In this document: positions 1-6,501 of the stretch, piece by piece
Layout of the letters: every line of letters begins with the position of its first letter
Numbering within the stretch: position 1 is the stretch's first letter
Assembly (NCBI GenBank): GCA_937911845.1
Contig: CALDQF010000467.1
Span: 1 to 6,501, forward strand
DNA: 6,501 nt
Direction: 5' to 3'
DNA from: an uncultured Phycisphaera sp.
GTDB taxonomy: Bacteria > Planctomycetota > Phycisphaerae > Phycisphaerales > SM1A02
Notes under the pieces: generated by a model
Seen by the model: only the letters and a program-made list of their open reading frames with translations
Told to the model about the DNA's origin: nothing
Databases searched by the model: none
Program-made: the position numbers and the translations under genes

Positions 1-3000
1 TCCTTCCTCAGATTCGTGGCGTGCTTTCTGTTCGCCAACAGCAGGTGTTGCGGATGGTGGCCGGGCCTAAAGACCGAACCCTGATTTTGGCGGGTCCCGC
101 CAGTGATGTGGCTGCCGTCAAAGAAGTTCTTCCCGTCTTTGACAAACTCCGTGCGGGTGAACGAGACATCGTGATCTTGCCTTTGCGTGGCCCGGATGCG
201 CAGGCCAGCGTTGAACGTGCGTTGGCGTTGGCCCGCGATCGACTCGCCGGTCGCGCTTTGTCGTCGATGGATCAAACCATCGAGGCCGTGTTTGATGCTC
301 AAGAGGGCACGGTGCGCATCGAAGCGACTCCGGTTGGGGCCGATGCCTTCCGGACCGCTCTTGATGAACTCGACCAGATTCCCTTGGTGGCCCCCACCGT
401 TCGTCAAGTTTCGGTGCAGTACGGATCAGCCGCTGACGTGGCCGGTGATCTCGCGGCCCTGTTGCAAATGCTCTCTGAGGTCAATGGTCGCCGTGTGGCT
501 GAAGTGTCTGCGGTCGAGGCGTTGAACGCCTTGCTGTTGACGGGATCTCCCGAATCTGTCGCCGAGGCTGAAGCATTACTGGCCCGGGTCGATCTTCCCA
601 AGGCCGGTGCCCAGGTGGTGCGAACCGTGTCGGTTCAGGAGGTCGCTGACCCGGAGCTGCTGGTTGAGGATGCTCGAGAAATTTTCGAGATTCTGAGTAC
701 GGGGACCAAGGCGGCAGATGCGTCCATCACCGCGACGTACAAGCAAGAGGCCGAGGTTGTTTTGCTGTCGGGATCTTCGTTGGCGGTGCAGCGCATGGAG
801 GAGGCCATTGGTCAAGCGCGTGCGGCCTTGCCAGCGCCGGATGTGCGCCGGGTGGTTGCGGTTCAGCGCGGCGATGCCGAAGAGGTGGCCGAACGGTTGC
901 GCACGGCACTTGACGAGTACCCCAAAGATCCCGGGCAGTCGATCAGCCCAGTGGACATCTCTGTGTTGTCGATTACCAATGAGTTGATGTTGATCGGGCC
1001 ACAAAAGTGGGTCGAGACCGGCATCGACCTGCTCTCGAAAGTGGATCGTCTTAGCGATGGGCCCTTGCCACCATTGCGTCTGCTCGGGGTCCGCAATACG
1101 GACGCTGCCACAGTTGCTGATTTACTTCGGCGACGGTTCGTTGCTCGGGGTGCCGACGAACGGCGCTCCGATCCCGTTGAAATCGATGTCGCTGAAGGTG
1201 CGAATGTTCTCATCATCACGGCCTCGGATGCACGTCAGGTTGAGATTAAGGGGCTGGTGGACGAACTCAACGCGTTCGGTGGTGCCGACCGAGAAGGCCG
1301 GGTCATTCGAATCTTCCCGCTCAAGACAGCTCAAGCCGAAGAATTGGCCCGGACCCTCGACGAGATGTTCCCTGAGAAGCCGGTTCCTCTGGATCGGCGT
1401 GGCCGACCAATGACTGAGTTGCGCGAGCCTCGAGATGTGGTGGTCCGCGCGAACCGTCAGACGAATTCTCTGATTGTTGATGCGCTCGCGGATCGAATGA
1501 GCTCTTTTGAAGAGTTGGTGCGACAGTTGGATCGAGAGCAAGTTCGGACTGAGACTTCTATTCGAACCTACCGGCTCACCGAAGCAGACCCACAACGTGT
1601 TGCGGCATCACTGCGGGAGCTTTCTGCTCAGGGCGTTTTGAATGTGGCTGGTGGCGACCGTCGTGTTCCCGTCAATGTGTCGGTGGAAGAGGCGACAAAG
1701 TCCCTCATCATCTCCGGGCCGGACGAGGCTTTTGCCCGCATCGAAGCGCTGATCGAAAATTTAGATGTCGCCCCACCGCGGGCCGAGACTGAACTTCGAT
1801 TCTTCCAGCTTCAGCATGCGCAAGCGGAGCGTATGGCGCAAATGTTCCGCCCCATTTTGTTGGGTCGTTTGCAAGAGTTGATGCCAGATCTGAAAGATCA
1901 GCCTGCAGCCGTGGAAGTGACCGCGGAGCCAGAAACCAACACGTTGATCGTCTCGGCACCCACTGTCTTACAAGATGTGGCGCAGGAATTGGTGGATCGT
2001 CTCGACCAGTCCTCATACGCCGGGCGGCGAACCTTCCGGACGCAGCGACTGGACCCGTCGGTTGCTGATGCTGAAGAGATTGCACGGAATCTCCGCCGGC
2101 TGCTCGAGCGAGAGGGCGGTCCAAAAGTTCGCGTTATTAGTTTGGAAGAGTTGCTGTCGGAACAAAAGGGATCAGAAGCAACATCACCTCCGAAGACTCC
2201 AGGTCAAGGTGGGATCAGCGTCCATTCGATCTCTGGCTTGGTCGCGGCGGCGGCACTGGGGGTTCTGCCCGAGTCGAACGACGCCGATACAGAAGAAGCC
2301 GATTTGATTGTCGCGGTGGATCCCGCAACGAATTCATTGGTGTATTTGGGATCTCCGGAATCCATCGAGTCCGCCACCGCACTGGTGAACGAGTTGGCGG
2401 CCGAACTGCCACCTCCGCCCGCCGAGATTTTGAGCATCGAGCTTCCGGACTCAATCGATCCGGGTGCTCTCACCCAACTGCTTCGCGACGCCCTGTTGCA
2501 ACTGGATGTTGCCGGTGGGACCAGCCGAGCTAGGAAGATCGGGATTCTTCCCAACCCAGACAGCAACGCATTGGTGGTTACGGGGAGCGAATCTGATCTT
2601 GACCTGGTCACCCAACTGCTCGCGGCCATCGCTAAACCTACCGGCGATGTTCCGCGTGAAGCTCGAGTTTTCCGCTTAGAAAAGGCAGCTGCTGATGTCG
2701 TGGCCGCGGCGGTTTACTCGTTGGTTGGCCGCGAGCCGTTCAACTATTTCCGATCTCGGAATCAAGCCCCCAAGACGGTGACATTGAGTTATGGCGGACT
2801 GGAACCGGTTGCCATCCAAAATGATCAAGTTGATGCCGCGGGCGACCTTTCGACGGGGACCGTCATGGTCACCGCGCCAGTCAAAGTGTTGCCCATTTTG
2901 GCGGCTTTCATCGCTGAACTTGATCGGCAAGAAGACGGTGTGGCCACATCGGTCAGAACGTTCCGCTTGGAGTTTGCCCAAGCCGAAACTATGCGCCGCA

Positions 3001-6000
3001 CGATTCTTCCCATTGTGAACAGTCAGTTTGCCACCATGGATCGATACGGCGATCGTCAGGAGATCGCCCTTGAAATTCGCGCTGACGTGCGGACAAACAC
3101 CCTGGTGGTTGCGGGCCGTGAAGAGCAACTTCAAGCTGTTTCAGGATTGGTTGACACGCTTGATGTCTCGGATGAAGCCGAAGGTTTGCGTCAACGCAAG
3201 ATTGAGCTTGTTCAAGTACTGGAGGCCGACCCCAGCACGGTGGCCCGGGCAATTCGTGAGCAATTCCCTCGTGGTCGAGGCGACGATCTCACTGTGACGG
3301 TGGATCCACGTACCCGAAGCATTGCTTTGGGTGGTACCGAGGCCGTGCTGGGTCAGGCGCGTGAACTCGTCACCTTGCTTGACCAGCCTGAAGCTGCTGA
3401 CGAAACCGTCCTTCGCACTTTCCGTCTGGATGAAGGCCGGGCCGACGAAGCGGTCCGTCTGCTGACCTCATCGTTGGGGCTGGATGCTCAAGGTCGAACC
3501 ACAGGTACAGCCGTGTTGCCCGAAGGGGCAGATGAGGCGGTGCTGGTCCGTGCTCGAATCGTGGCAGATCAACGAACCAATGCGGTTGTGGTGAACGCGA
3601 CCGCTGAATCGATGCCCATCATTGAGGGGCTGCTCGAGGAATTGGCGGCGGCACCGCCCAAGCCAATGCGTGAGTTCCACGTGGTGCAGTTGGAACACGC
3701 CATGGCTGACGATGTGGTGTACACCCTGCAGCGCGTATCAGATCGGGGAACCCGGGAGACTCCAGGGCCAAGCTTCGATTTTGAACGGGACGCGAACCGA
3801 GTCATCGTGCGAGCCACGCCAGACCAGTGGAAGAACATTCAGGAGGTGATCGAGAGTCTGGACCGCGCGGTGGAGAATCCATTGGTCACGGAAATTGTGT
3901 CGCTGCAGTGGTCGGAAGCGAAGCAAGTTCGGGAGGCCCTCGGCATCTTCTATGGCACATATGCCTACGCCGCCACAACACCGGCCCAACGCTCGGTCTC
4001 CATCGTGGCCGATCCCAGCACTGGGAGCTTGGTTGTTTCTGCACCCGAAGGAGAGTGGGAGAGCATTCGCTCTTTGATTTCCAAATTGGATCGTGAGGAG
4101 AATGATGCTTCCTTGCAACTTCGGTCTTTTACGTTAGCGCACGCCGATGCCAGGGCCGTCGCGCGAGCCATCAATGAAGCGTTTTCTGGTGAATTGACCG
4201 GGAGAAACCAGCGGGGGAACCAAGCCTCTCGAGGTCGTGAAGATCGCGACGCTCCGCCTACCGTTCTGGTGGAAGCAAACGAATGGGTACGTGCAAGCGC
4301 AGAAACAGAGACCAACAGCGTAGTCGTCGCGGCCAACCGAAACCGAATGGACAAGATCGCGGAGATCGTTACTTCTTTGGATCTTGCCGGTCAAGAATCG
4401 CAAGGCGGGGTGGTTGAGGTCATCCGCATTGCCTCGTCCAGTTCGGTGGTGATCGCCGACGAGCTCAGACGGACGTTCAATCCCATCGCCAAGCGTCGTA
4501 ATCAGTCCTTGTCCATCCAGGCGTCGGTCGCTTCAAACGCCATCATCGTCTCGGCGCCTCTGCCATTGATGGAGCGAATCGAGCAGACCGTGGCCGCCTT
4601 GGAATCCTCCGCGCCTTCCGACGGTGAAGCGGTCTTGATCATTGACTTGGACCACGTATCTCCGCAGGACGCGCAACGATTCTTGAACAGTGTTGGGGCC
4701 GCGGGAGGTCAAGACGCTGCGGGAAGAAATTTCCGGGAGCCACTCCGGATTTCACCGGTTCCAGGACGCAACGCCATCGTGGTGGCACTGAATCCTGCCG
4801 ACCGAGACCGGGTGACGTCTCTCCTGAAGGCCCTCGATCGTGAAAATGCTGACGCGGCTGCTGAAGTGCGGCTGGTGCAGCTGCAGCGCAACCGAGCCGA
4901 CGCCATCGCAAATATTGTGCGGCGAGTCCTCGAGCCTGCCAACAGTGCGGTTGGTACACCACTCGGCAAAGGTCTAGCCGCGCAGCTTCGTGCGCTGCGG
5001 GTGCACCAAGACGGTGGGGCCGACCAAGATTTGGCTTTGGATCTCACGGTCCCCATTAAGGTTCAGCCAGACACGTCGAGCAACACTGTGGTGGTGACTT
5101 CCTCGCGATCCAACGTTGAGGCCATTGAGTCGTTCATTGAACTTCTGGACCGCGTGCCAGTGACCCCTTCGGTGTCGGTCAACGTGATGGTGTTGGACCA
5201 CATCGACGCCGATGCCTTCAGCGCGTTGGTACGTGATCTGGCCTCTCAATCGAGCCAGCTTTCTCGCACTCCGGTCAGTGGCGTGGTCGGCTTGCCCGCG
5301 GACCCCGCCGGTCGTGCTCTGTTGACGGGCATCGCCTTGTCGGTAGATGACCGCACCAATGCGATTGTGGTCGCGGGTTCTGAAGAGGCCGTCGCGTTGG
5401 TGGAAGTGATGCGCATCAAGATGGATGTGCCCGCTTCCGACGGTTGGCTCGAGCCAAGGTTATTCCCGGTCCAGCACGCCAATGTCGAAGATCTTGCCAG
5501 TCGCTTGAACGATCTGCTGTCGAGCGCTGGGGAAGAGCCGGATGCAGCGAGGCGCTTCGGAAGACTTCGCGTGTTGCCGGCCCTTGGTGACTCCACGGTC
5601 TACAACTCGCGACTGAGCGCCCCCTTGGACGAGGTGTACGTCAGTGCAGAATCTCGGCTGGGTGCCGTTCTTGTGGTGGCGGAAACCGAGCACCTGCAAA
5701 TTGCCGCGGAATTGATTGGCATGTTGGATGTGCCTTCATTTCGCACCTCGGGTGGCTTTGCCTCCATTGGACTTGCGAACGGCTCGGCGGAGTTGGTGGC
5801 GGGGCGCTTGCAGCGGGTTATTGATGAGCAACGAGAGGTTGGGGCACTGGGAGACGATGATGGTTTGATGGTGGAGCCCGATGTGGCCAGCAACGCGATC
5901 ATCCTCTCGGGTTCGGTGCCTGCTCTTGAACTTGCTCGTTCGGTTCTACCCACTCTGGACACTGCAAGCTCTGATGTGGTGGTGGAAACAATTGGTCTTG

Positions 6001-6501
6001 TGTTCGCGGACCCAGTTCGAGTGGCTGATGTTGCGCAGTCTTTGTTGCAAGCTCGATCTCAGATGCGGCAGCGCATGGGAGCGGGGGCTCGCGCTGTGGC
6101 CGAGACTGCGGTGGTGTTGCCCGATTTGCGATCCAACAGTTTGTTGGTGACCGCCACGCAGACTGGTTTTGAAATTGTCCAAGACCTCGTGCTGCAACTG
6201 GACGTGGAGCGTGACCTCAATGAGACCGTCTTTGAGGTAATCCCAGTGGGTCGAGCGGGACTGTCGCGGACGGCTGACGCGGTCGGACGGTTGCTGGAGC
6301 GACGCACCGTTGGGCTCTCTTCTTCGGAACGAGCGCGGCGTCAACCATTGGTGATTCCTGATGCTCGCACCGGCGCCTTGTTGGTGGCCGCCGCACCTGA
6401 GAGGCTACTGATGGCTGTTCCTGCACTGCTGCAAGCTCTGGCCTACAACGAGAGTGTATTGACAGAATTAGAAGGCTTTTTGATGGACATCCCAGTTGAA
6501 C
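1..6501 (+). CDS. Giant secretin N-domain (NolW-like) tandem-repeat protein, partial at both ends
   Basis: One frame is open across the whole window: first complete codon at base 3, last at 6498-6500, 2,166 residues without a stop. The start lies upstream, because the sequence opens inside a repeat; the in-frame ATG at 54-56 falls mid-domain and is not the start. The stop lies downstream. The protein is about 25 degenerate repeats averaging 84 residues. Each has a beta-alpha-loop-beta-beta-alpha pattern with an R-x-F-x-L strand, an A-D-A-x-x-V-A helix, a T-N-A-L-I-V type strand and a final helix ending in L-D. This matches the secretin N1-N3 (NolW-like) domain, which builds periplasmic rings in type II/III secretion and type IV pilus secretins. 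Those proteins have one to three copies; this one has many times more and shows no secretin barrel signature in the window. It has no cysteine, six tryptophans (residues 336, 1276, 1303, 1352, 1428, 1815), little lysine and many acidic residues, consistent with export. No signal peptide can be assessed. The coding call is near certain, the family good, and the function (envelope scaffold or multi-ring conduit) inferred. Confidence 0.95.
3..143 (+). other. Repeat unit 0 (C-terminal half only, cut by window edge)
   Basis: Residues 1-47 fit the second half of a unit: a hairpin strand K-D-R-T-L-I-L-A-G-P (residues 23-32) followed by a helix ending V-F-D at 45-47. Its first half must lie upstream, which shows that the gene began before this window. 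Confidence 0.6.
165..380 (+). other. Repeat unit 1, divergent NolW-like domain
   Basis: Residues 55-126. The first strand is D-I-V-I-L-P-L-R and the first helix starts at P-D-A-Q-A-S-V. The hairpin strand, E-G-T-V-R-I-E-A-T at 101-109, lacks the T-N hallmark. The closing helix ends in E-L-D (122-124). Assigned mainly by spacing and hydrophobic pattern. Confidence 0.5.
396..593 (+). other. Repeat unit 2, shortest unit
   Basis: Residues 132-197, about 66 residues, with almost no loop between helix 1 and strand 2. It starts T-V-R-Q-V-S-V, has helix A-A-D-V-A-G-D-L, hairpin strand L-N-A-L-L-L-T-G at 174-181, and closes R-V-D at 195-197. It approximates the minimal fold of the repeat. Confidence 0.6.
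606..833 (+). other. Repeat unit 3, divergent
   Basis: Residues 202-277. The opening strand is Q-V-V-R-T-V-S-V. The first helix carries a short extra lead (D-P-E-L-L-V-E-D-A-R). The hairpin strand E-V-V-L-L-S-G at 251-257 lacks T-N, and the last helix has no closing L-D. Confidence 0.5.
840..1052 (+). other. Repeat unit 4
   Basis: Residues 280-350. The first strand is V-R-R-V-V-A-V-Q-R. The first helix, D-A-E-E-V-A-E-R-L, is canonical. The hairpin strand is I-T-N-E-L-M-L-I-G at 324-332, the first unit in the window to carry the T-N hallmark. It ends K-V-D-R-L and contains the first tryptophan, residue 336. Confidence 0.65.
1065..1280 (+). other. Repeat unit 5
   Basis: Residues 355-426. First strand L-R-L-L-G-V, helix T-D-A-A-T-V-A-D-L-L, a short Arg-rich loop (379-390), then hairpin strand G-A-N-V-L-I-I-T-A at 399-407 and a closing helix. 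From here the repeats look more canonical than units 0-3. Confidence 0.7.
1287..1538 (+). other. Repeat unit 6, canonical
   Basis: Residues 429-512. The strand R-V-I-R-I-F-P-L and helix A-Q-A-E-E-L-A-R-T-L are followed by a loop of about 20 residues. The hallmark R-Q-T-N-S-L-I-V-D-A is at 485-494 and the unit closes Q-L-D-R-E. It is one of the clearest matches to the NolW-like pattern. Confidence 0.8.
1542..1775 (+). other. Repeat unit 7
   Basis: Residues 514-591. First strand S-I-R-T-Y-R-L, helix E-A-D-P-Q-R-V-A-A-S-L, hairpin strand A-T-K-S-L-I-I-S-G-P at 564-573 (Lys in place of the hallmark Asn), and closing N-L-D followed by a Pro-Pro linker (591-592). Confidence 0.8.
1776..2012 (+). 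other. Repeat unit 8, canonical
   Basis: Residues 592-670. First strand L-R-F-F-Q-L, helix H-A-Q-A-E-R-M-A-Q-M-F, hallmark P-E-T-N-T-L-I-V-S-A at 643-652, closing R-L-D. All elements of the family pattern are present, with a modest helix-to-strand loop. Confidence 0.8.
2016..2411 (+). other. Repeat unit 9 with about 60-residue loop insertion
   Basis: Residues 672-803, the longest unit. The core is canonical: strand F-R-T-Q-R-L, helix D-A-E-E-I-A-R-N-L, hallmark P-A-T-N-S-L-V-Y-L-G at 774-783. Between helix 1 and strand 2, residues about 705-765 form a Ser/Pro/Gly-rich insertion with a small hydrophobic patch (L-V-A-A-A-A-L-G-V-L, 746-755) too short for a membrane span. The unit runs into a four-proline linker (803-806). 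Confidence 0.75.
2412..2639 (+). other. Repeat unit 10
   Basis: Residues 804-879. After the polyproline linker: strand E-I-L-S-I-E-L-P, helix D-P-G-A-L-T-Q-L-L-R, hallmark P-D-S-N-A-L-V-V-T-G at 852-861, and a closing helix ending without L-D. Confidence 0.75.
2649..2930 (+). other. Repeat unit 11 with extended aromatic loop
   Basis: Residues 883-976. First strand A-R-V-F-R-L, helix A-A-A-D-V-V-A-A-A-V. A long loop (about 910-948) is rich in aromatic residues near its start (F-N-Y-F). Hairpin strand S-T-G-T-V-M-V-T-A-P is at 950-959, closing E-L-D-R-Q. Confidence 0.7.
2940..3173 (+). other. Repeat unit 12, canonical
   Basis: Residues 980-1057. The strand S-V-R-T-F-R-L, helix F-A-Q-A-E-T-M-R-R and hallmark D-V-R-T-N-T-L-V-V-A-G at 1028-1038 make this one of the best matches to the secretin N-domain consensus. 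It closes T-L-D-V. Confidence 0.85.
3180..3392 (+). other. Repeat unit 13, compact
   Basis: Residues 1060-1130. First strand R-K-I-E-L-V, helix D-P-S-T-V-A-R-A-I, very short loop, hairpin D-P-R-T-R-S-I-A-L-G-G at 1101-1111 (Arg at the hallmark Asn position), closing L-L-D. Confidence 0.75.
3393..3656 (+). other. Repeat unit 14, canonical with moderate loop
   Basis: Residues 1131-1218. First strand V-L-R-T-F-R-L, helix R-A-D-E-A-V-R-L-L, a Gly/Thr-rich loop (1161-1183), hallmark D-Q-R-T-N-A-V-V-V-N-A at 1189-1199, and an Ala/Pro-rich joint (1215-1221) to the next unit. Confidence 0.8.
3657..3869 (+). other. Repeat unit 15
   Basis: Residues 1219-1289. First strand R-E-F-H-V-V-Q-L, helix H-A-M-A-D-D-V-V-Y-T-L, hairpin R-D-A-N-R-V-I-V-R-A at 1262-1271, closing S-L-D-R-A. 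Tryptophan 1276 sits at the start of the second helix. Confidence 0.75.
3873..4100 (+). other. Repeat unit 16
   Basis: Residues 1291-1366. First strand V-T-E-I-V-S-L, helix S-E-A-K-Q-V-R-E-A-L, a Tyr/Ala-rich loop (1317-1330), hairpin D-P-S-T-G-S-L-V-V-S-A at 1337-1347, closing K-L-D-R-E-E. It carries two tryptophans (1303, 1352), more than any other unit. Confidence 0.8.
4101..4388 (+). other. Repeat unit 17 with Arg/Gly/Asp-rich loop
   Basis: Residues 1367-1462. Strand L-R-S-F-T-L, helix H-A-D-A-R-A-V-A-R-A-I, hallmark T-E-T-N-S-V-V-V-A-A at 1435-1444, closing S-L-D. The loop at about 1399-1428 is strongly hydrophilic (G-R-N-Q-R-G-N-Q then R-G-R-E-D-R-D) and looks disordered. Confidence 0.8.
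4401..4610 (+). other. Repeat unit 18, compact
   Basis: Residues 1467-1536. First strand V-V-E-V-I-R-I, helix S-V-V-I-A-D-E-L-R-R, short basic loop (A-K-R-R-N), hallmark V-A-S-N-A-I-I-V-S-A at 1509-1518. The last helix ends A-L-E, without the usual L-D. Confidence 0.75.
4620..4844 (+). other. Repeat unit 19
   Basis: Residues 1540-1614. First strand A-V-L-I-I-D-L, helix S-P-Q-D-A-Q-R-F-L, Gly/Ala-rich loop (1565-1575), hairpin P-G-R-N-A-I-V-V-A at 1587-1595, closing A-L-D-R-E. Confidence 0.75.
4848..5159 (+). other. Repeat unit 20 with about 35-residue loop
   Basis: Residues 1616-1719. First strand E-V-R-L-V-Q-L, helix R-A-D-A-I-A-N-I-V-R-R, loop at about 1646-1681, hallmark T-S-S-N-T-V-V-V-T-S at 1691-1700, closing L-L-D-R-V-P. 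It is the first of three consecutive long-loop units. Confidence 0.8.
5163..5432 (+). other. Repeat unit 21, canonical hallmark
   Basis: Residues 1721-1810. First strand V-N-V-M-V-L, helix D-A-D-A-F-S-A-L-V, Ser/Pro/Gly loop (about 1750-1775), and the hallmark D-D-R-T-N-A-I-V-V-A-G at 1782-1792. That hairpin is close to the textbook secretin N-domain sequence. Closes K-M-D-V-P. Confidence 0.85.
5442..5735 (+). other. Repeat unit 22 with about 35-residue loop
   Basis: Residues 1814-1911. First strand P-R-L-F-P-V, helix A-N-V-E-D-L-A-S-R-L, loop at about 1842-1877, hairpin S-R-L-G-A-V-L-V-V-A at 1884-1893 (Gly at the hallmark Asn position), closing M-L-D-V-P. Carries tryptophan 1815. Confidence 0.75.
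5739..5966 (+). other. Repeat unit 23
   Basis: Residues 1913-1988. First strand G-F-A-S-I-G-L, helix S-A-E-L-V-A-G-R-L, short acidic Gly-Asp loop, hallmark V-A-S-N-A-I-I-L-S-G at 1961-1970, closing T-L-D. Confidence 0.75.
5970..6209 (+). other. Repeat unit 24
   Basis: Residues 1990-2069. First strand V-V-V-E-T-I-G-L-V, helix R-V-A-D-V-A-Q-S-L-L, an Arg/Met/Ala-rich loop (2018-2033), hallmark L-R-S-N-S-L-L-V-T-A at 2042-2051, closing Q-L-D-V. Confidence 0.75.
6213..6452 (+). other. Repeat unit 25, last complete unit in window
   Basis: Residues 2071-2150. First strand V-F-E-V-I-P-V, helix T-A-D-A-V-G-R-L-L, Ser/Arg loop, hairpin D-A-R-T-G-A-L-L-V-A-A at 2120-2130 (Gly for the hallmark Asn). 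The last helix ends without L-D. Confidence 0.7.
6453..6500 (+). other. Start of repeat unit 26 or of a C-terminal region (cut by window edge)
   Basis: Residues 2151-2166 include G-F-L-M-D-I-P-V, which could be the first strand of another unit. The frame is still open at the window end, so the protein continues. Sixteen residues are too few to decide between a further repeat and a different domain. Confidence 0.4.

Follow-up and report, generated by a model that had tools for sequence, protein, structure and literature searches.

What is a frame that consists of secretin N-domain repeats from one end of a contig to the other, and to which machine does it belong? The question is raised by the window analyzed here, a stretch of 6501 bases that makes up the entire contig C467 (CALDQF010000467.1) of an uncultured Phycisphaera sp. 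whose genome assembly is fragmented into 493 contigs. A single frame of 2166 aa (3..6500, forward strand) spans the window and is open at both contig ends. Based on sequence comparisons, we assign the gene to a type II secretion system (T2SS), as a giant form of the T2SS secretin GspD. The window covers the central portion of this protein, and we consider it likely that the approximately 34 N1-type units of the whole chain each form a ring, the rings stacking into a continuous periplasmic tube. We favor this reading because the repeats, a secretin barrel and an N0-like N-terminus occur in one gene that stands in a T2SS operon, is under purifying selection and belongs to one clade, and because unit order is colinear in near relatives while a lineage with a split array has a similar total.

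The complete gene and its operon

The Pfam family Secretin_N (PF03958) matched the window frame with 534.9 bits (E 1.5e-164), 17 stretches being individually significant. A hidden Markov model (HMM) built from the window's repeats and iterated over relatives detected 24 units and two unit-sized gaps (residues 48–133 and 198–282), giving about 26 units. Successive unit ends are 86 residues apart on average (20 spacings), and the median spacing across the giant secretins described below is 80 residues (4407 spacings). The original prediction, made from the sequence alone, of about 25 tandem secretin N-domain-like repeats with a period of about 84 residues is therefore borne out. Other Pfam signals in the window were KH-type cross-matches without a significant single stretch and DUF4911 below its cut-off. 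The NCBIfam model TIGR02517 scored 421.4 bits against a cut-off of 351.35, a value summed over 12 repeated stretches of a barrel-less fragment.

A full-length relative, P0001 (3262 aa), is 98% identical to the window, and contigs of the window's own genome map along it: C164 to residues 1–410, the window to 373–2505 and C29 to 2512–3262. C164 provides the N-terminus, and C29 the C-terminal units and a secretin barrel (PF00263, E 8.8e-52), which in P0001 lies at residues 3043–3208 (E 2.1e-49). Three Phycisphaerae loci (L012–L014; 28.5, 28.5 and 22.5 kb) each have an uncut frame of about 3300 aa with 32–33 detected units and a barrel. Both P0001 and L012 have 32 detected units plus two unit-sized gaps, and not the canonical three-N1 architecture of PulD, ExeD and XcpQ. 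The full gene in these relatives comprises a signal-peptide-like start, an N0-like domain, about 34 N1-type units and the C-terminal secretin barrel. Since C164 and C29 hold the ends and the relatives have a single uncut gene, the window represents the central part (approximately residues 373–2505 of 3262) of a giant secretin that is itself complete, and the barrel is absent from the window through the contig cut. The earlier statement that no secretin barrel is in view thus holds for the window but not for the gene, and the idea of a repeat protein without a barrel gives way to a complete secretin with about 34 units, a barrel and a T2SS operon.

The genes around the giants point to a T2SS. 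At L012, F and G were identified above Pfam cut-offs and the other pseudopilins and K gave weak matches; at L080, T2SSE, T2SSK and a PilM-type L were above cut-offs, T2SSI and an N-methylation motif were below, and F and G were found by tblastn. With T2SSG (L012) and T2SSK (L080) as neighbors above cut-off, the genes did not resemble a type IV pilus operon, in which the secretin would be a PilQ; the N0 matches given below are likewise of the GspD type. An M-type neighbor is present at 45 of 56 loci. GspE does not adjoin F in L012 or L078. Immediately preceding the T2SS F gene is an AMP-binding (acetyl-CoA synthetase-like) gene in L012 (466–2478, +) and L078 (18634–19986, −); L080 has GspE at that place.

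The GspD N0 family, PF21305, matched 23 of 58 N-terminal segments (61 minus the three of L049, with seven downstream split halves included). It had no match in the N-terminal segment of the window's own species or in that of L012, which still aligns with the other segments. The M-position protein at L011 (1352–2281, −) is predicted to have a PilO/GspM-like part fused to a GspC-HR/PilP-like domain, according to a model that drew on 34 of 46 M-type proteins; GspC was identified by Pfam in none of the 10 open reading frames (ORFs) scanned at L012. Directly 3' of the D gene at L010 is a 175-aa ORF (2253–2777, +) with a lipobox-like start, as judged by eye. Similar sequence follows D in 14 loci, which include L010 and the query L012 (the others being L013, L014, L026, L040, L061, L067, L078, L082, L084, L085, L090 and L093; L026 is the same place as L040). 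This ORF, for which Pfam gave nothing above cut-off, is a pilotin candidate.

Fold, order and number of the units

An AlphaFold2 model of four consecutive units (window 3198–4121), computed from 117 rows (the window together with 116 runs of four units, chosen among 192 candidates), reached a pLDDT of 89.7 and a pTM of 0.58. It has the beta-alpha-beta-beta-alpha arrangement that had been proposed for each unit in all four of them, and one loop contains additional short strands. Foldseek and VIA-align both ranked T2SS secretins first, and a single unit superposed on Vibrio cholerae GspD at 1.3 Å over 59 residues, with values of 1.3–1.7 Å for GspD N-domains generally. By this confident model the units are secretin N1-type domains. 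The strongest within-unit couplings in a mean-field analysis (4295 neighboring unit pairs, with 4038 i,i+2 pairs as control) appear compatible with the monomer fold, a comparison made on secondary structure only.

The linkers between units are as short in the giants as in ordinary secretins: 93% of 2229 linkers between detected units have 6–12 residues (mode 9, then 8), and in 20 ordinary secretins all 50 have 7–11 (mode 8). Tight packing is described for PulD N1–N3 in an excerpt of PMC6882859. Loop lengths inside the units vary by −8 to +32 residues (5–95% range), and linker lengths do not. This difference would suit an alternative in which the extra units serve as a surface for cargo handling or scaffolding, each binding substrate, peptidoglycan or further proteins of the envelope, and the length of the tube is incidental, as would the divergence of the units from one another and the retention of position-specific identity among near relatives. 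We regard this alternative as quite improbable, considering that Secretin_N was the Pfam family found in the window, beyond the KH-type and DUF4911 signals noted above, and that steady unit totals in several families, preserved after splitting of the array, point to length.

Giants span 20 to approximately 65 units, the longest being L059 (6169 aa, 63 detected units and two gaps). We compared P0001 unit by unit with 17 relatives using reciprocal-best matches. All 19 reciprocal-best units shared with L078 (30 units) were colinear, and all 24 shared with L040 (50 units) were in order, the first four and last twelve (ten of them matched) being in register with the extra units between. Most other near relatives were fully or nearly colinear (the worst, L089, at 16 of 19 steps); distant giants were not (L064, 7 of 11 steps; L056, 5 of 9; L036, 6 of 11; L059, 5 of 7). 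As length changes in near relatives fall between conserved end units, unit number probably sets reach. Totals within narrow families include 50 units in all five counted members of f2 (the sixth, G046, was not among the fetched giants), 37 in two of f5, 42–47 in nine of f7, 40–45 in six of f18 and 39–48 in six of f21, one of which is ended by its contig. Genome size provided no explanation of unit number (51 genomes, rho 0.08, p 0.58) in a test for which the window genome's 34 units were taken from relatives and loci cut by contig ends (e.g., L042, L045, L058, L068, L075 and L094) were omitted, with L070, also cut, retained. We do not rely on the rho of 0.93 within f1, which is based on six genomes.

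The giant gene is under purifying selection. Its dN/dS is 0.059 relative to L012 and 0.050 relative to L014 (2150 and 2151 codons), synonymous sites being saturated relative to L013, and for all 24 units listed pN is lower than pS. A neutral repeat expansion with no function of its own might account for the broad span of unit numbers and for the five of 11 genomes in the window's family that are without a giant. However, it is already contradicted by these ratios and by the unit order of several relatives, in which all reciprocal-best matches (19 of 19 to 24 of 24) are colinear, and we consider it very improbable.

The split array and the case for a tube

In nine loci of families f18 and f16 (L048, L049, L051, L052, L058, L063, L077, L083 and L094) the array is carried on two adjacent genes. 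In six of the nine, each half is one complete frame; in L049 the upstream half lies in two frames that overlap at masked sequence, and in L058 and L094 the array is cut by a contig end. The upstream protein lacks a barrel, has 23–29 detected units (in the six) and finishes with a basic tail that is mostly Arg-rich. The downstream protein has 13–16 units, the barrel and its own signal-peptide-like start (by eye), totals including gaps being 40–45 units. The stretch before the first downstream unit is often acidic, with a net charge of −5 to −22 in six of nine loci and of 0 to −3 in three. The Arg-rich tail and a start of net −5 to −22 occur together in L048, L049, L051, L052, L063 and L083; L077, L058 and L094 have the tail and little net acidity. 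It is possible, judging from these charges, that the pair mediates electrostatic docking of two stacked tubes.

We aligned the six complete split arrays with 20 fused proteins. Counted back from the end, the break for eight of the nine f7 proteins lay between units −16 and −14 and never strayed by more than one unit from a common position, on colinear paths that included from 19 of 24 (best) to 8 of 15 (worst) reciprocal-best units; for the ninth, L073, it ranged from −14/−13 to −21/−20. In a separate tree, in which truncated giants were counted as ordinary, the split forms group together (92/58) within the fused giants, and a single fission is therefore the simplest account. Stacked rings would tolerate such a split, whereas a single-chain tether would not.

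Several results weigh against a continuous tube of stacked rings. Three-unit superpositions on assembled GspD gave 7.3–18 Å rmsd (27 Å for 8co1) and two-unit fits 4.2 Å (4e9j_B) and 6.5 Å (5wln_A), with the pTM at 0.58; with multi-unit superposition this poor, the monomer model fails to display the stacked arrangement. Co-variation between neighboring units outside column 69 (maximum z 4.4 for 61-21, 4.1 for 53-63 and 4.0 for 57-21) barely exceeds the i,i+2 control (3.8 and 3.6) and is too weak for use. Unit number is unsteady in f14 (20–40), f15 (33–65) and the window's own f1 (31–55), and 11 of the 20 fused proteins, all non-f7, align poorly with the split arrays (1–12 units on the path), the break scattering among them. 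The five genomes of the window's family without the giant are also without its GspL. Other secretins in giant-bearing genomes are of ordinary length, which implies that not every envelope machine needs reach, and the long tube would therefore serve this machine alone or part of the envelope. G044, whose array is the longest of all, also has a TonB-type frame, of 244 aa only. A measured periplasm width for Phycisphaerae was not met in the literature, in which no search was aimed at one.

Some of these results would be expected if rings were formed only by the units nearest the barrel and the remainder were a flexible or spring-like tether of beads, by which the channel stays attached to its inner-membrane platform at varying distance. 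The orientation between units is undefined in the monomer model, which matched the assembled stack poorly, neighbor co-variation is weak, and the width of the planctomycete periplasm differs from cell to cell, as an excerpt of PMC5394234 describes. We nevertheless consider such a tether rather unlikely: the halves in the split lineage are separate polypeptides, each with a signal-peptide-like start (by eye), which would cut it, the linkers are as short and uniform as those of ordinary secretins, and unit order is kept among near relatives. Between the long stacked-ring tube and the flexible rod or scaffold that were originally offered as options, the tube is thus the better supported, and we infer the formation of its rings.

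The stacked tube would run from its N0 end at the inner membrane to the barrel in the outer membrane. The inner-membrane protein encoded just upstream, with its predicted GspM/PilO-like fold and GspC-HR/PilP-like domain, would hold the N0 base, and the pseudopilus, driven by GspE and F, would push folded cargo along the tube. Secretion could in this way keep working wherever the two membranes of the planctomycete envelope are widely separated, and the number of units would set the reach. Tightly packed GspD rings measure about 25 Å each, and the barrel part of PilQ about 95 Å. By analogy with characterized GspD and PilQ, each tube would have 12–15 chains and one ring per unit, at about 2.5–3.6 nm per ring, the upper value of 36 Å being the PilQ length less the crown and that barrel part. 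At 25–36 Å per ring, 34 units would give approximately 85–125 nm and 65 units approximately 160–235 nm. We lean somewhat towards the view that this is the longest known secretion conduit, with 20 to approximately 65 stacked rings (tens to about two hundred nm) built of one giant chain or two placed end to end, its length genetically set by unit number and a T2SS pseudopilus working in it across an enlarged planctomycete periplasm.

The giants resemble GspD and PulD (N0-N1-N2-N3-barrel) in their PF00263 barrel, N1-type fold, linker length, T2SS operon partners and GspC-HR-like partner domain. They differ in having 20 to approximately 65 N1-type units, not three, in including a lineage with a split array, and in that their ring assembly is a prediction. 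According to an excerpt of PMC5745081, Thermus thermophilus PilQ has six stacked N-rings (N0–N5) of 13 chains and is 350 Å long, with crown spikes of about 40 Å, and there too added N1-type domains lengthen a periplasmic tube across a wide periplasm. However, that secretin serves type IV pili and DNA uptake, and five of its rings are N1-type; the protein studied here has about seven times as many N1-type units and stands in a T2SS operon. No description of giant or multi-N-domain secretins of Planctomycetes or Phycisphaerae was among the papers listed in the literature searched, whose coverage leaves out most subscription journals. If the stacked tube is correct, this clade would extend the known number of N-rings several-fold and planctomycete envelope spacing would become testable through repeat counts. 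The giants represent a natural length series, plus one split version, for ring-stack assembly and pseudopilus action in a very long tube.

Distribution of the giants and features of the window

Far from being an isolated oddity, the window belongs to a clade of giants that occurs, as a lower bound, in 62 of the 198 Phycisphaerae genomes. Of these, 49 encode a frame of 2000 aa or more that includes a barrel, and another 12 encode a split-lineage frame of about 1550–1850 aa (for G045, G083 and G184 we presume the split on the basis of family and frame length); the genome of the window completes the count. A secretin of some kind was found in 197 of the 198. As single-contig genomes (G002, G032, G038 and G167) are among the 49, the giants are no assembly artefact. 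A tree of the barrels from 61 giant rows, including the window genome's own C29, and 22 ordinary secretins (two identical) places all 61 giants together, separated from the rest by a branch with 96/85 support; the root is unsure because the ordinary branches are long. The nearest ordinary group has three units in 11 of its 13 members and five in two. Outside the class, no secretin frame exceeded 1641 aa in eight genomes chosen for their abundance of Secretin_N candidates. Protein-database relatives with a named organism are planctomycetes among the matches listed (72, and 120 of 203), in searches that reach close relatives only.

Long tandem N1-type arrays resembling those of the giants also occur in other, non-class Planctomycetota, as repeat-only Secretin_N proteins. 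L091 (7774–15843, −) encodes one of 2690 aa, with 26 units plus gaps and no barrel in the frame, in a Pfam scan of two frames of that stretch (the repeat protein and a Kdo-kinase-like gene). G481 (C1:4114382-4120798) encodes one of 2208 aa, with no secretin match in the frame.

As a proxy for a wide periplasm, TamB (PF04357) was found in 0 of 20 genomes. TonB_C (PF03544) is rarer with giants, occurring in 11 of 62 giant-bearing genomes vs. 73 of the remaining 136 in the class (Fisher p 1.3e-6, uncorrected for relatedness), the latter group taking in fragmented genomes and genomes beyond the matches listed. This scarcity is possibly linked to envelope width, but a TonB-type frame is present both in the genome of the window and in G044, which are counterexamples. 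In other classes of the phylum the periplasm can be greatly enlarged, with a width that varies from cell to cell, as stated in an excerpt of PMC5394234.

The repeats had been placed at 165..6452, which stands up to about nucleotide 6400. The last approximately 33 codons (6402..6501) are divergent, with no match in P0001, L012–L014 or the next contig of the same genome, C29, and are probably an assembly artefact or misassembled contig end. All features are on the forward strand. The array begins with a unit of which only the C-terminal part was detected (30..143). Two units were assigned from the unit-sized gaps, undetected by the HMM and with approximate ends (171..377 and 621..824), on either side of a detected one (402..593). 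HMM-detected units follow at 849..1049, 1077..1268, 1308..1535, 1563..1766, 1797..2009, 2064..2396 (with a long internal loop), 2454..2627, 2664..2927 and 2955..3164. The four modeled units are at 3210..3386, 3414..3644, 3678..3866 (the unit superposed on GspD N-domains at 1.3–1.7 Å) and 3891..4094. Further detected units are located at 4122..4382, 4419..4601, 4638..4841, 4869..5153, 5187..5423, 5457..5729, 5769..5960 and 5988..6203, and the last, at 6234..6407, enters the divergent tail.
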